From Halolamina salifodinae (GTDB taxonomy: Archaea > Halobacteriota > Halobacteria > Halobacteriales > Haloferacaceae), in NCBI RefSeq assembly GCF_017874235.1, contig NZ_JAGGLC010000004.1, positions 124,001 to 188,000 of the forward strand: a stretch of DNA of 64,000 nucleotides. Reading direction: 5' to 3'. The translations under genes and the position numbers were made by a program. Under the pieces are notes generated by a model, which made no database searches, was not told the DNA's origin, and saw nothing but the letters and a program-made list of their open reading frames with translations. Each line of letters opens with the position of its first letter. The stretch's first letter is position 1. Below are positions 11,287 to 54,856 of the stretch, one piece after another.

Positions 11287-13548
11287 TCAGCGGAGCCGCC
11301 CCAGTAGCGGGGTCGACGCCGCCACCAGCGCGTCCGCGGCGTCGACGGCCTCGTCGGCCGCCGCCTCGTCGGCGTCGCCGCCGTGGTGGGCGCGCTCGTA
11401 CAGCGCCGCCACCGTCCGGACCCGCGAGTCGGTCGCGCGGATGGCGTCGAGGTACGCCCCGACCGTCTCGTTCGGCCGCCGGGGGCGGTTTTTGGCTGCG
11501 AGCAGCGTCTCCACGCGGTCGTACGCCCGTTCCACGTCGGCGACCGGGTCGGTCCGTGGCTGGTAGCGCAGCCAGACGAACCGGTAGAGTCGGGTGTCGA
11601 GACCGATCCGACGCCCGGCAGCGACACCGCCGAGCAGGATCACCAGCCCGTAGCCCACCTCCTCGGGCGTCGGGAGCGAGGGGTCGCCGTCGTTCTCGCT
11701 GCCGCCGGGGGAGAACGTCCCCACGTCGCCCGGCGCCGCGGTGCGCCGGCCCTCCGCGATGTCGGCGAGATCCGGCGTCTCCGTGGAGCCGTTGGTGCTA
11801 TCCTGGCCCTCGGTCGGTTCGGGCGTCGGCGCGGGCGTCGGCGTCCACTCCCCCGACCCCGAGCGGCCGGTGTCGACACCGGACTCACCGGCCTCGCGGG
11901 CCTGGGAGACGCGGGACTCGCTCGTTTCCTCGCGGGCCGCCGACGGCGTCGGGTCGAACGTGACCCAGCCAGTCTCCGGGAAGTACACCTCGACCCAGGC
12001 GTGGGCGTTCAGCCCGCGGACCACCCACTCGTCCTCGCCGACGCGTTCGCCGGGGGTGTAGCCCGTCGCCATCCGGGCCGGGATCCCCTGGGTGCGGAGC
12101 ATCACGGCCATCGTCGTCGCGTAGTAGGTGCAGTAGCCGGCGTCCATCTCGAAGAGGAACGCGTCGGCGACGTTGCCCCGCGGGCGCTCGACGTTCAGCG
12201 AGTAGGACTTGGTCGACTCCAGATACTGTTCGACCGCGACCGCGGTGCCGTAGGGCGTCGTCGCGTTCGCCCGGTCGGCGATGGCCGCAGTTCGCTCCCC
12301 GACGCGGTCGGGCGTGCTGTCGGGCAGGCCGAGATAACGCTCACGGATCGGCGCGGGGTAGTCGGTGCCGGCCTCGCGGAGGTCACGCCGAGTGTAGACG
12401 GGGCGCCGGCTAGTGACCGAGTAGGACTCGCCCGGCGAAATCGACGCCACGGCGCGCAGGCCGTTCTCGGCGGTCACCTGCGTCGCTCGCTCGACGTTGC
12501 CGCTGACGCCCACGGGCTTCCAGAGCGCCGGCATGGAGTTGAGCGTGGTCTCGGCGGTGATCGTCTGCTCGACGGTGATGCTGCCACCCGGCGGCGGGTC
12601 GAGGGAGCCGTCGTAGGCCCGCGCCTCGCCAGTCCTGACCCACGAGCCGCCGGTGTAGCGGTCGTAGGCGCCGACGCGCCAGTAGCCCTCACGCTCGGAC
12701 TGGACGGTGAAGCGCACCTCCGGGGAGAGCCGGATGGCGCCGACGATGCCCACGCTGTCGCCGTTGGCAACGACGTTCCCCTCCAGCGTCGGCTGGCCGG
12801 TGCCGGCGAGCATCGGCCGGGCGTCGCCGCCGGGCACCAGCGAGACGGTCGTCGAGAGCACCACCATCAGGGTGAGCACGAGGACGACGGTGTCCCAGCG
12901 CGCCGCGAGCGCGCGTCGGGGCGCGAGTTCACCCAGCGCGACCGCGAGTGCGGCGCCGACGACGCCCGTGAGCGTGGTGAGGAAGCCGGCGTCGCCAGTG
13001 AGGACGAACAGGCCGAGCGCGCTCCCGCCGACCGCGGCACTCAGCGGGAACTCCCCGCGGAGCGCGAGCAGCCACGAGCCAAACAGCGGCGCCGGCAGCA
13101 CCGCCAGCGCCCAGATCTCCGCCTGGATCAGCCGGAACACTGAGAGCCCGCTCAGGAGCGCGAACAGGTCCCGGAGCACGACGCCGAGGTCGATCAGCGC
13201 CCGCTGGCTCGCCGGGATGGCGGAGTAGTAGCCGAGCAGCCCCCCGACGAGCACCGCGCCGGTGCCCAGCAGCGCCGTCCGGGCGTCGACACGCGAGGCC
13301 AGCGCCGCGCCGACGAGCAGCACCACGACCACCTCCGCGACCAGCGCGCCCGTCCCCCCGACCACGTCGGTGACGTGGACCAACACTCGGAGATACGACG
13401 CTGTCAGGAGCGCAAAACCGAGCATCGCCGGCCGGGCGAGCGCCTCGCGGAGCGACCACGCCTGGTCGGGGGCAAGCAGCCTCGCGAGTCGGCCGGGCTC
13501 CCGGCCGGCGTCAGAGCCCGCATCGGGGCCGGCGCCTCTGGTGCTCAT
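11287..13548 (-). CDS. Transmembrane transglutaminase-like protein (TgpA type, with DUF4129)
   Basis: A 753-aa membrane protein. The N-terminal part has about six hydrophobic helices within residues 40-235 (DUF3488/TgpA-N). An extracytoplasmic region with a transglutaminase core follows (about 380-510). The papain-like triad is visible: Cys in DAGYCTYYATTMAV, His in GLNAHAWVEVYF, Asp in WVTFDPTPSA. A Ser/Thr/Glu-rich linker leads to another membrane helix (about 625-645) and a cytosolic DUF4129 tail (FVWLRYQPRTDPVADVERAY). This architecture is the standard partner of MoxR and DUF58, both directly upstream, with a 4-nt overlap with DUF58. The substrate is unknown; cross-linking or trimming of surface proteins is the usual suggestion. 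Confidence 0.92.
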   Translation of the reverse strand: MSTRGAGPDAGSDAGREPGRLARLLAPDQAWSLREALARPAMLGFALLTASYLRVLVHVTDVVGGTGALVAEVVVVLLVGAALASRVDARTALLGTGAVLVGGLLGYYSAIPASQRALIDLGVVLRDLFALLSGLSVFRLIQAEIWALAVLPAPLFGSWLLALRGEFPLSAAVGGSALGLFVLTGDAGFLTTLTGVVGAALAVALGELAPRRALAARWDTVVLVLTLMVVLSTTVSLVPGGDARPMLAGTGQPTLEGNVVANGDSVGIVGAIRLSPEVRFTVQSEREGYWRVGAYDRYTGGSWVRTGEARAYDGSLDPPPGGSITVEQTITAETTLNSMPALWKPVGVSGNVERATQVTAENGLRAVASISPGESYSVTSRRPVYTRRDLREAGTDYPAPIRERYLGLPDSTPDRVGERTAAIADRANATTPYGTAVAVEQYLESTKSYSLNVERPRGNVADAFLFEMDAGYCTYYATTMAVMLRTQGIPARMATGYTPGERVGEDEWVVRGLNAHAWVEVYFPETGWVTFDPTPSAAREETSESRVSQAREAGESGVDTGRSGSGEWTPTPAPTPEPTEGQDSTNGSTETPDLADIAEGRRTAAPGDVGTFSPGGSENDGDPSLPTPEEVGYGLVILLGGVAAGRRIGLDTRLYRFVWLRYQPRTDPVADVERAYDRVETLLAAKNRPRRPNETVGAYLDAIRATDSRVRTVAALYERAHHGGDADEAAADEAVDAADALVAASTPLLGRLR

Positions 13549-14717
13549 GCTGCCACCCCCGCGGGCGCGCCGGCCGAGTCGCCGTCGACCATCTCGCTGA
13601 ACTGGTGGCTCGCCCCGCGCACGTCGACGCTGGCGTCGTCGGCGCGGCCCTTGATCACCACGTCGGCGTCACCGTCCGGAACCGGACCGGCAGCCACTGT
13701 CGCCAGGGTCCGGAGCATCGCGCGCTCGCCGCCGTACTCCGGGCCGACCCGGAGGTCGCCGCGTGGGAGCGAGAGGTCGACCGGGACGCCGCTCGCGACC
13801 AGCGAGGAGACGACGCTCGCGGTCGCCTCGGCCATCGCGTCGGCGCCGTCGGCGTTGGCGCCCGCGGCGACCGACACCGACTCGGCCTCCGTTTCGGCGG
13901 CGAACTCCGTGACGATCAGTTCGTCGCGTTTGGCCGTCGTCTTCCAGTTGATGTCCCGCAGCGGGTCGCCGGGGACGTACTCCCGGAGTTCGGCGAACTC
14001 GCCGCGCTGGTCGCTGTGGCCGAACTCCTCCAGCCGACCGAGCGAGCGTCGGCCCACTCTCCCAAGCCGTCGGACCCGGGGGTAGACCAGCGTCGGTTCG
14101 GAGCCCGTGAGTTCGGTCTCGCGGGCGAACAGGCCGAACGCGTCGGTCGCGGTCACCGTCGCCGGCCCTAGTTCGTGCCGGCCCCGGGACTCGTAGCGCA
14201 CGTCGTAACGGAGCGTTCCGGCGCCGACGGCCGTCTCGAACGTGATTTCGGCGTCACCAGAAATCTCCGATTTCTGGTTGGCAGACGAGAGCCTCCGGCT
14301 CTCGTCGACGTCACCAGAACGCGGCGCGTTCTGGTTGGCAGGCGAGAATCTTCGATTCTCGTCGACATCGCCGTCGGCGCGCTCACGGACGTTCCCGCCG
14401 TCGTTGGGCGGAATTGGCGCGAGGCCGGCAGCCAGTCGTTCGGTCACGTCGCCCGGGAACGGGCGGGCGATCATCTCGCCGTCCCGGCGGGCGAGCGTGA
14501 GTTCGGCGGTTCGAGTCTCGCCAACGTGGGCGTCCCCGGGCGGCGTGCGCTCGACGGTCACGTCGGGCGTCGTCGACAGCTGGACGTAGCCGGCCGAAAG
14601 CGCCACGGCTGCGGGGACGACGACGGCGTTGAGCGAGCGCGCGCCGAACCAGAGCGCGAGCAGGACCGCGACGCCGGCGACGCCGACGACGGCGCGGCCA
14701 CGACGGGTCAGCATCAC
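13545..14717 (-). CDS. DUF58 domain protein carrying an in-frame palindromic repeat insert
   Basis: A 390-aa protein with two N-terminal hydrophobic helices (AVVGVAGVAVLLALWFGARS and SLNAVVVPAAVALSAGYV) and the DUF58 signature GDPLRDINWKTTAKRDELIV (about 255-275), followed by a von Willebrand-like C-terminal region. DUF58 proteins are encoded with MoxR ATPases and transglutaminase-like proteins, as here. Residues about 115-155 are out of place: two 19-aa tandem repeats (VDENRRFSPANQNAPRSGD and [19 protein letters not shown]) encoded by the double-hairpin element at 14253-14366. The insert keeps the frame and lies in the extracytoplasmic beta-rich region before DAEITFETAVG. The stop overlaps the transglutaminase start by 4 nt. 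Confidence 0.92.
   Translation of the reverse strand: MMLTRRGRAVVGVAGVAVLLALWFGARSLNAVVVPAAVALSAGYVQLSTTPDVTVERTPPGDAHVGETRTAELTLARRDGEMIARPFPGDVTERLAAGLAPIPPNDGGNVRERADGDVDENRRFSPANQNAPRSGDVDESRRLSSANQKSEISGDAEITFETAVGAGTLRYDVRYESRGRHELGPATVTATDAFGLFARETELTGSEPTLVYPRVRRLGRVGRRSLGRLEEFGHSDQRGEFAELREYVPGDPLRDINWKTTAKRDELIVTEFAAETEAESVSVAAGANADGADAMAEATASVVSSLVASGVPVDLSLPRGDLRVGPEYGGERAMLRTLATVAAGPVPDGDADVVIKGRADDASVDVRGASHQFSEMVDGDSAGAPAGVAA
14253..14366 (-). repeat. Two tandem 57-bp double-hairpin elements translated in frame
   Basis: Copy 1 (14253-14309) and copy 2 (14310-14366) are exactly 57 bp each. On the plus strand each reads GTCA, a hairpin with 9-nt arms and a 3-nt loop, a TTGGCAG linker, a second 9-3-9 hairpin, then CGAC. 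Hairpins are at 14257-14277, 14285-14305, 14314-14334 and 14342-14362; the first three are perfect and the last has one terminal G-T pair. Arm sequences differ between the copies (CCAGAAATC versus CCAGAACGC; ACGAGAGCC versus GCGAGAATC) yet each matches its own partner, while the linkers are identical. Both copies are read as protein by the DUF58 gene. Confidence 0.92.
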
Positions 14718-15718
14718 TCGACGGCGACCGACGAGAGCGCCGCCGACACCACGTCGTCGCCGGTCTCGCTGCCGGTTCGCGGGCGGATCCGGTGGGAAAG
14801 CACCGTCGGCGCCTCGGCCTGCACGTCGTCGGGCGTGACGTACTCCCGGCCGGCGAGCAGCGCCCGGACCTGTGCAGTGCGGGCCAGCGCGATGCTGCCA
14901 CGGGGGCTCACGCCGAGTTGGGCGTGGTTCCGGGTGTACTCGGCCAGCCGACTGATGTAGTTCCGGACTGGCTCACCCAGCCGAACCTCGGCCACGGTCT
15001 CGCGGGCGCGCCGGAGCGCGTGGCCGTCGGTGACTGGCGCTAACTCCTCGATGGGGTGGTGGCCGGCGGTGCGGCCGATGATCTCGGCCTCCTGATCGCT
15101 CTCGGGGTAGCCCAGCCGGAGTTTCTTCGCGAACCGGTCGATTTCGGCCATCGGGAGTTCGTAGGTGCGGCCGGTCTCCACGTCGTTCTGGGTCGCGATC
15201 ACCGCGAACGGTTCGGGCAGCGGCCGGGTGTCGCCGTCGACGGTTACCTGCCGCTCTTCCATCGCCTCCAGCAGCGCGCTCTGGGTTTTCGGCGGCGCGC
15301 GGTTGATCTCGTCGGCGAGCACGACGTTCGCGAACACGGGACCGGGCTGGAACTCGAACTCCTGGGTCTTCTGGTTGTAGACGTTCACGCCCGTCACGTC
15401 GGCCGGGAGGAGGTCGGGCGTGAACTGCACGCGCCGGAACGAGGCGTCGACGGAGGTGGCCACCGACCGCGCGAGCATCGTCTTCCCGGTGCCGGGCACG
15501 TCCTCCAGCAGCACGTGGCCGCCGGCGAGGACGGCGACGACGATGTGTTCGACGGCCTCACGCTTGCCGACGATGACGCGCTCGACGTTGTCGACCACGT
15601 CCTCGATCAGATCGCCGGCGGCGTCGACCGACAGCGGTTCGAACGTGGGAGGGCTGGCGTCGCCGCCTGGATCGACCGCGGCGTCGCCGCCGTCGCTACG
15701 GGGGTCGTCGGGACTCAT
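14714..15718 (-). CDS. MoxR-family AAA+ ATPase
   Basis: A 334-aa AAA+ ATPase. Walker A is in EDVPGTGKTMLARSVATSVD, Walker B and the MoxR-specific loop in VVLADEINRAPPKTQSALLE, followed by MEERQVTVDG and sensor 1 in FAVIATQNDVE. The C-terminal lid carries SPRGSIALARTAQVRALL, typical of the MoxR proper subfamily. It acts as a chaperone-like ATPase for von Willebrand-domain proteins; here the partner should be the DUF58 protein, whose start overlaps its stop by 4 nt. It is the first gene of a five-gene minus-strand run that ends at 9264. The divergent upstream region (15719-15881) should hold its promoter. Confidence 0.93.
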   Translation of the reverse strand: MSPDDPRSDGGDAAVDPGGDASPPTFEPLSVDAAGDLIEDVVDNVERVIVGKREAVEHIVVAVLAGGHVLLEDVPGTGKTMLARSVATSVDASFRRVQFTPDLLPADVTGVNVYNQKTQEFEFQPGPVFANVVLADEINRAPPKTQSALLEAMEERQVTVDGDTRPLPEPFAVIATQNDVETGRTYELPMAEIDRFAKKLRLGYPESDQEAEIIGRTAGHHPIEELAPVTDGHALRRARETVAEVRLGEPVRNYISRLAEYTRNHAQLGVSPRGSIALARTAQVRALLAGREYVTPDDVQAEAPTVLSHRIRPRTGSETGDDVVSAALSSVAVE

Positions 15719-54577: not shown

Positions 54578-54856
54578 ATGGAGTCCACGCCCAGCGACCG
54601 CCGCCGCCGCTCCGTGCGCCAACTGCTGTTCGTCATCGCCGGCGCCCACACCGGGGCGTTCGCCGGGTCGGCGCTCCCTCGCTTTGGCCTGCCGGGGGAG
54701 GTGGTCAGCGCCATCACGGTGCTCGTCCTGTTCACGCTACCCTTCGTCGTCGACGAGAATCAGAGATTCTCGTCTGCACACGAGAGCTTCGCTCTCGTGA
54801 ACGTCGACGCCAAGTGGGAGTACGTCGACCCGCTGTTCGAGAAGGTGATGCAGTAG
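54578..54856 (+). CDS. Small membrane protein carrying an in-frame palindromic element
   Basis: A 92-aa protein with two hydrophobic helices (RQLLFVIAGAHTGAFAGSAL and VVSAITVLVLFTLPFVVDEN). Directly after the second helix, residues about 58-77 (VDENQRFSSAHESFALVNVD) are encoded by a double-hairpin element (54749-54808) related to the one inside the DUF58 gene. The ending AKWEYVDPLFEKVMQ probably reflects the original C-terminus. The function is unknown. It follows idsA by 56 bp. Confidence 0.72.
   Translation: MESTPSDRRRRSVRQLLFVIAGAHTGAFAGSALPRFGLPGEVVSAITVLVLFTLPFVVDENQRFSSAHESFALVNVDAKWEYVDPLFEKVMQ
54749..54808 (+). repeat. Double-hairpin palindromic element translated in frame
   Basis: GTCG, hairpin 54753-54773 (ACGAGAATC-AGA-GATTCTCGT), linker CTGCA, hairpin 54779-54799 (CACGAGAGC-TTC-GCTCTCGTG), then AACGTCGAC. 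Both hairpins are perfect 9-3-9. In the coding direction it parallels the DUF58 copies (GTCGACGAGAATC..., CTGCCAA linker). Translation gives VDENQRFSS, close to VDENRRFSP and VDESRRLSS in DUF58. Confidence 0.85.

Follow-up and report, generated by a model that had tools for sequence, protein, structure and literature searches.

Palindromes lying in frame inside protein genes are best known from Rickettsia, with scattered cases in other bacteria, and the Rickettsia elements favour one frame and one orientation. Here we describe a double-hairpin unit from a 64,000-nucleotide stretch of the genome of the archaeon Halolamina salifodinae (hereafter, the window). Like the Rickettsia palindromic elements (RPEs), as far as our partial sources describe them, it places palindromes in frame within many unrelated protein genes; unlike them, it has an archaeal host and a two-hairpin layout of 57 bp. 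This comparison, already made in the initial annotation of the window, turned out to be closer than proposed, since RPE-6 and RPE-4 of Rickettsia conorii have been classed as CGTC-tagged repeats (PMC3733652) and our unit carries CGTC at both outer ends. RPEs are also reported, in the portion of the source used here, to lose their repeat identity (PMC6649704), whereas the stems of our unit are maintained in three orthologous gene pairs.

The sections of the work on the CGTC-tagged REP superfamily that we draw on (Di Nocera 2013, PMC3733652) describe hairpins tagged with CGTC on their outer side, intragenic copies and no known associated transposase, all of which apply to the unit as well; they also describe mostly HH dimers, the arrangement of the units that a dimer-only model finds here. 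In contrast, stems of 8–9 bp and loops of 4–5 nt in those repeats compare with a stem of 10 and a loop of 3 by maximal pairing here, and their three-base tail, mostly CCA, with a TGGCA linker. The commonest hairpin of our family pairs over 10 bp around a 3-nt loop (101 of 157), and opening its innermost pair would give 9 and 5; the CGTC tag lies unpaired outside the single hairpin, but pairs with GACG in the folded dimer. The element resembles CGTC-tagged REPs, yet departs from their definition in some respects, and the main text of that paper, as far as it was available, names archaea only in the titles of two references.

REPINs, as presented in the part of PMC3116915 that we cite, also have an inverted pair of hairpins as the replicating unit, with compensatory changes and tandem clusters, but they are linked to RAYT genes, whereas no unit lay beside the 16 Y1 loci examined here; a survey of Y1 proteins reports, in its accessible portion, only the IS200-type subclass from archaea (PMC6006769). 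The PATEs and SMRs of Haloquadratum (PMC3119063) are likewise small mobile repeats built from palindromes or inverted repeats, and they leave no duplicated target, as is proposed for our unit; the ends of PATEs resemble IS605-type transposons and SMR-A (about 110 bp) targets those elements, and none is described, in the part of that report considered here, as lying in frame within genes. The coding palindromes known from nematomorph mitochondria (excerpts of PMC6649704) are similar in that inverted repeats are kept perfect, for which template switching has been proposed, but they reach 284 bp, are mitochondrial and do not form a dispersed unit with a usual site. In the literature searched, which took in few subscription papers, we found no account of archaeal palindromes lying in frame, nor was there one in the sections consulted of a 2024 review of MITEs (PMC10969869). 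The class is known; new here are an archaeal host, a dimer layout and its insertion site, and stems that are maintained.

Results

Two double-hairpin units lie in frame within a DUF58 gene

Two units with a period of 57 bp occur side by side on the plus strand of the window, as the initial annotation had proposed, but they span 14252–14367 instead of 14253–14366, that is, 1 bp more on each side (Table 1). The loops are of 3 nt, as stated there, whereas the arms, given as 9 nt, pair over 10 bp in every hairpin of both units if one includes the A-T or G-C pair next to them, and the linker proper is TGGCA in both units instead of TTGGCAG. Folded as single-stranded DNA, unit 1 is predicted to form a closed three-way junction with the outer CGTC paired to GACG and TGGCA as the sole long unpaired stretch (−21.2 kcal/mol compared with a mean of −7.8 over 200 shuffles; z −6.4). 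The two-arm pattern occurred three times in the window, compared with none in 100 shuffles.

The expectation that the 38 residues encoded by the insert would be precisely absent from the DUF58 proteins of relatives was borne out: three Halolamina orthologues (L034–L036) lack exactly 38 residues, with a DNA gap of 114 bp, and read ERAD/GDAEITFE, ERAD/GDSEITFE or ERAD/GDAEITFR across the junction.

Table 1. Location of the units, of their host gene and of further copies (window positions unless a contig is named)
Feature	Coordinates	Strand	Description
Transglutaminase-like gene	11287-13548	-	adjoins the DUF58 gene; ORF list and Pfam
DUF58 gene (PF01882)	13545..14717	-	carries the insert; ORF list and Pfam
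MoxR-type AAA ATPase gene	14714-15718	-	adjoins the DUF58 gene; ORF list and Pfam
Unit 1	14252..14310	+	order CGTC, hairpin 1, TGGCA, hairpin 2, GACG
Unit 1, hairpin 1	14256..14278	+	ACCAGAAATC-TCC-GATTTCTGGT
Unit 1, hairpin 2	14284..14306	+	GACGAGAGCC-TCC-GGCTCTCGTC
Unit 2	14309..14367	+	CG shared with unit 1 by overlap; starts with CGTC, ends with GACA
Unit 2, hairpin 1	14313..14335	+	ACCAGAACGC-GGC-GCGTTCTGGT; paired changes relative to the arms of unit 1
Unit 2, hairpin 2	14341..14363	+	GGCGAGAATC-TTC-GATTCTCGTC; second pair a G-T wobble, 8 Watson-Crick pairs inside it
Net in-frame insert	14254..14367		114 bp, two 57-bp units, 38 aa; orthologue comparison; boundary set by the GRCG/TC model, a shift of a few bases being equally possible
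Third window copy	46356..46414	+	intergenic; lies inside a larger structured repeat (about 46290-46670)
Fourth window copy, divergent	54748..54802	-	C4:178748-178802, E 6.6e-13
Larger repeat copies (G000)	window 46290-46670; C1:544108, C1:660139, C2:268499, C6:66898, C6:151336		
Larger repeat copies (G000), continued	C7:71797, C7:78075, C7:96856, C7:115322		

The unit belongs to a family dispersed across the order

The sequence TTCTGGTTGGCAG occurs 27 times in the 2.75-Mb genome of H. salifodinae and not once when read backwards. A covariance model (R1) built from 23 copies, which detects dimers only and leaves singletons uncounted, gave 147 raw matches over both strands of this genome, with 150 of 4244 first-look candidates scored. 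Taking the better strand and E values down to 2.8e-8, there are at least 91 units, merging into at least 82 arrays. Matches on both strands numbered 87, 23, 14, 67, 6, 71 and 24 in G000 to G006, G000 being this genome and G001–G006 six others of the genus. At an E value of 0.001, 52 of 60 genomes, H. salifodinae included, contained a match (7/7 in the genus and 45/53 in the remaining order), and among 80 genomes of the phylum, again with H. salifodinae, 9 of the 11 from the order matched at 1e-4 compared with 4 of the 69 from outside it. The predicted recurrence of the pattern is seen both within this genome and across the order. The four outside genomes (G084, G101, G094 and G066) come from a single family, and six stretches from them (L261–L266) hold AT-rich paired hairpins of the AAATC-nnn-GATTT type, in part connected by TGCC-like linkers, but lack the CGTC layout; these are possibly a separate family of like design.

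The units found with the dimer-only model R1 are dimers with tags outside (HH). Among 148 units of the genus (88 from H. salifodinae and 60 from the other genomes, three later units of the former being omitted), the left tag was CGTC in 89, CATC in 29 and GGTC in 17; in 28 loci from other genera the left end was CGTC in 16 and CGTT in eight. The linker was TGGCA in 67 of the 101 units of 59 nt.

Nine haloarchaeal plasmid records matched, mostly partially, and in the two inspected (L256 and L257) no mobilizing gene could be singled out. In pHME132 of Haloferax mediterranei (L256) an annotated IS6 transposase gene begins within the match and has an integrase gene as its neighbour; a similar sequence lies on pNRC200 of Halobacterium salinarum (L257). 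No match was found in the phage records searched. Ten stretches of viral contigs fit the spaced pattern and were taken as chance occurrences, because the nine bases between their fixed arms add at most one pair and the second hairpin of the family is absent from roughly 150 bases around them.

Some units are enclosed, singly or severally and at times inverted, in larger intergenic repeats of roughly 300–750 bp, whose ends are partly complementary, of the GACAGCAACAGCATCTCTATCGTTGGCAACTTGTGACCGC type in some copies. A simple end pattern identified ten copies among the fetched loci (Table 1), and the one in the window has a strong RNA fold (z −6.7); this larger repeat could represent either a MITE or a structured RNA. 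G004 (L199) and G000 (L070) share one orthologous intergenic site at which their units have opposite orientations and different arms, as if the unit had been replaced or inverted there.

Copies inside genes share one orientation and one frame

Using a codon log-odds model trained on the window, 21 of 79 arrays of H. salifodinae, plus one of three fetched later (22/82), were called as lying inside genes. All but one of these 22 have a common orientation, with the unit strand opposite to the gene, and a common frame, which encodes roughly VDESxxxSSANQNAxRSGD, close to VDESRRLSSANQNASRSGD, so that each insertion lengthens the protein by about 19 residues. The lone exception (C1:515733) is a divergent copy of opposite sense in a deaminase gene. 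A further copy (C1:729418), which falls below the in-gene thresholds, splits the domain of a Usp gene in the shared frame and is included in the genic counts of unit lengths and pairing. The divergent fourth copy of the window, which lies towards the C terminus of a small ORF on the plus strand, also begins in the shared frame (VDENQRFSSA), but it is shorter than a full unit and its length is not divisible by three.

Units in genes measure 57 bp, and also 45, 51 and 54 bp. Their length was a multiple of three in 24 of 24 genic units compared with 46 of 64 non-genic ones (Fisher, 0.002), a test that is indicative only, because it treats related copies as independent; the same dependence makes the probabilities of frame and orientation no more than indications. 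In the 64 non-genic units, the six frames were open in 19, 44 (the shared frame), 53, 43, 54 and 54 cases, and comparison with flanking genes gave 57 units oriented as in genes and 55 opposite. Stop codons are therefore not the cause of the frame bias, since five of the six frames are mostly open, nor can a general preference of orientation be the cause of the bias seen in genes.

The hosts are diverse. A Pfam scan of 19 of the 23 (those of the 22 arrays and the Usp copy) identified DUF58, shikimate dehydrogenase, DsbA, FtsJ, FAA hydrolase, phosphomannomutase (PMM), DHDPS (DapA), aldo/keto reductase, class V aminotransferase, UDG, AA kinase, Usp, NIF3, carboxymuconolactone decarboxylase, GNAT, DUF5807 and deaminase, whereas the hosts at L019 and L072 had no match. 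We read the FtsJ host as RlmE and the AA kinase host as isopentenyl phosphate kinase (IPK).

The 60 best-scoring loci listed from the six other genomes of the genus (28 of 67 in G003, 20 of 71 in G005 and 12 of 67 in the other four, a choice from which no rate is claimed) included eight called as in-gene, five in the shared frame and three antisense. The shared frame of these three, however, encodes a glyoxalase-like domain (L175) and MazE/AbrB-like matches (L200 and L201, the latter under the Pfam cut-off), so we overrode the codon model and counted all eight as shared-frame. In other genera, three of 28 usable loci (30, minus two too short) were called as in-gene, all in the shared frame, with unit orientation assigned by a crude rule.

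The hydrophilic, non-basic peptide of the shared frame would suit an acidic proteome. In a predicted structure of PMM (mean pLDDT 74.4, from a 14-row alignment), residues 166–183, which belong to the insert, form a coil with pLDDT under 50; five further, shorter segments of the model also score under 50. Aligned to its best solved relative, 2yxg, DapA shows a 19-residue gap at the insert.

Stems stay paired and inverted loops are in excess

In 23 full-length copies, 99.3% of the stem cells were paired, compared with 30–48% when partners were slid. Double-changed stem cells numbered 34, compared with a shuffled mean of 10.7, and none of 500 shuffles reached this value; by contrast, two of the five measures taken, pairs with a double change (5 compared with 3.3, reached by 46 of 500 shuffles) and further pair types (10 compared with 9.5, reached by 267 of 500) were not outstanding in these copies. 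Pairing in hairpins 1 and 2 was 99.6% and 97.3% for 26 genic units of 59 nt and 98.7% and 97.9% for 75 others, with the outer CGTC/GACG pairs intact in 77.9% and 72.0%, respectively. Pairing of the arms, which differ and yet stay self-complementary as first noticed in the DUF58 gene, is as complete inside genes as outside them.

Three orthologous pairs of filled genes, DapA (G000/G003), AbrB-like (G002/G004) and RlmE (G000/G006), showed no difference in 51, 51 and 45 non-loop positions (0/147), whereas their flanks differed at 93/600, 156/590 and 90/600 positions (339/1790 in all; 15–26%). The 45 positions of the RlmE pair are the two outer hairpins and the linker of the second G000 unit, G000 being 57 bp longer between them. 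Loop bases had changed in 4/6, 1/6 and 0/6 positions of DapA, AbrB-like and RlmE, respectively, and one loop of the DapA pair is exactly inverted, TTC facing its reverse complement GAA. Common descent of the DapA copies is likelier than two insertions, because both orthologues have the rare GAGAACC arms, present in three of the 148 units, two of which are this pair. Inverted loops are also in excess across the family: among copies with the same arms and different loops, 572 of 3601 pairs are exact reverse complements, and 14 distinct reverse-complement loop pairs occur on identical arms, compared with a mean of 5.5 and a maximum of 13 in 2000 simulations.

The covariation, the stable folds and the non-loop conservation in the three pairs would also be expected of a functional RNA element, with hairpins acting in mRNA (processing, stability or termination) and selected as RNA, in genes and elsewhere. 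We consider this unlikely, because orientation relative to flanking genes is unbiased outside ORFs (57 compared with 55), the insert is missing from most sister genomes in the seven genes compared (below), loops and arm types vary widely, and the whole window has no Rfam match at the gathering threshold. The initial annotation had taken compensatory arm changes to imply selection or conversion; the compensation holds, and as to its cause we favour self-templated correction with loop inversion over selection on DNA or RNA. Selection on structure or transfer between species could explain the stems, but loop inversion less easily. Conserved stems could also come from a recent transfer or from separate insertions at one and the same site.

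Units enter genes as exact insertions at a usual site

Seven genes (DUF58, DapA, AroE, RlmE, PMM, IPK and UDG) have filled and empty alleles that differ by exact units, with gains of 57, 51, 108 or 114 bp. In the six other genomes of the genus, AroE, PMM, IPK and UDG were empty in 6/6; RlmE was empty in 5/6, G006 being filled with one 51-bp unit compared with 108 bp in G000; DapA was empty in 5/6, G003 being filled at the identical site; and DUF58 was empty in all three Halolamina records. Besides, a glycine-transporter-like gene of G005 (L226) carries a full unit of which the G000 orthologue retains a remnant with a 27-bp in-frame deletion. The differences are between species, none having been seen at strain level.

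In the seven genes the site is mostly GRCG when read along the unit strand, which corresponds to CGTC or CGCC in the direction of the gene. To the right of the insert, the gene strand retains the four bases CGTC in AroE, DapA (G000) and UDG, CGCC in PMM, DUF58, DapA (G003) and RlmE (G006), TGCC in RlmE (G000) and CATC in IPK. Empty alleles have CGTC at the site in AroE (4/6, the others CGTT and TGTC), DapA (1/5, the rest CGCG) and IPK (2/6), and CGCC in PMM (4/6), DUF58 (2/3) and RlmE (2/5); the UDG alignment is uncertain at this point. At its left end, the insert reads CGTT (AroE), CGTC (DapA, RlmE), CGGT (PMM), TGTC (DUF58, UDG) or CATC (IPK). Two of these bases do not agree with the kept site at DUF58 and PMM, and one does not at RlmE (G006) and DapA (G003), suggesting that the unit brings its own CGTC, although duplication followed by mutation could also give differing left ends.

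A Y1 transposase as the mover is unsupported. Matches to PF01797 numbered 1, 0, 0, 3 (broken), 1, 10 and 4 in G000–G006, so that G001 and G002 have none, yet they contain 23 and 14 unit matches, G002 being only 79% complete. The 13 best matches are short frames of 133–149 aa, and no unit was found at the 16 of 19 Y1 matches examined (best E 0.025).

We read the element as REP/REPIN-like, a haloarchaeal counterpart of the RPEs, a dispersed palindrome, inserted as a whole unit, that is probably non-autonomous, moves in single-strand style and has self-corrected stems. As a single strand, the unit would close into a three-way junction, with TGGCA between its two 10-bp hairpins and CGTC pairing with GACG, and would enter immediately 3′ of the short usual site, in most cases GRCG as read along the unit strand, bringing its own CGTC and duplicating no target, much as elements of the IS200/IS605 and REP types insert as single strands. 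It would land in all orientations and survive in genes almost only in one orientation and frame, which would encode a hydrophilic loop tolerated by the protein, with selection removing other placements. Stems would then be kept perfect through template switching or conversion between arms or copies, loops being inverted too.

An origin without transposase, in which CGTC-flanked repeats would multiply by replication slippage and by ectopic gene conversion among themselves, would agree with the tandem units, the mixed hairpin types, the common ends and the two copy-bearing genomes without Y1. We find it improbable, because units entered exactly into genes that have no such sequence in relatives, which needs more than about 4 bp of homology. 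It is very doubtful that the element is a MITE with incidental palindromes, mobilized by a DDE transposase that duplicates a short target (about YGYC): inverted-repeat ends, small size and like sides at DapA (G000, CGTC), IPK (CATC) and, without comparison to an empty allele, the AbrB-like gene speak for it, but the left ends are off at the four sites above and two internal hairpins with paired changes would be unexpected.

Significance

We tentatively suggest that haloarchaea may possess their own lineage of protein-inserting palindromes, moved by a non-RAYT enzyme, in which pairing would be inherited through continual recopying of the partner arm within working genes, with loops flipping and synonymous sites frozen even where the protein has no need of them. 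The genus includes cultured archaea, its species offer both filled and empty alleles, and the insertion site can be read, which makes it possible to test how hairpin elements spread when no transposase is known for them, and how proteins such as DapA or AroE accommodate an insertion that comes ready-made. Because codon positions and pairing can be scored together, these genes are also a natural experiment on stem correction. If the suggestion is true, core-metabolism proteins across an archaeal order would gain a standard disordered loop of 15–38 residues.
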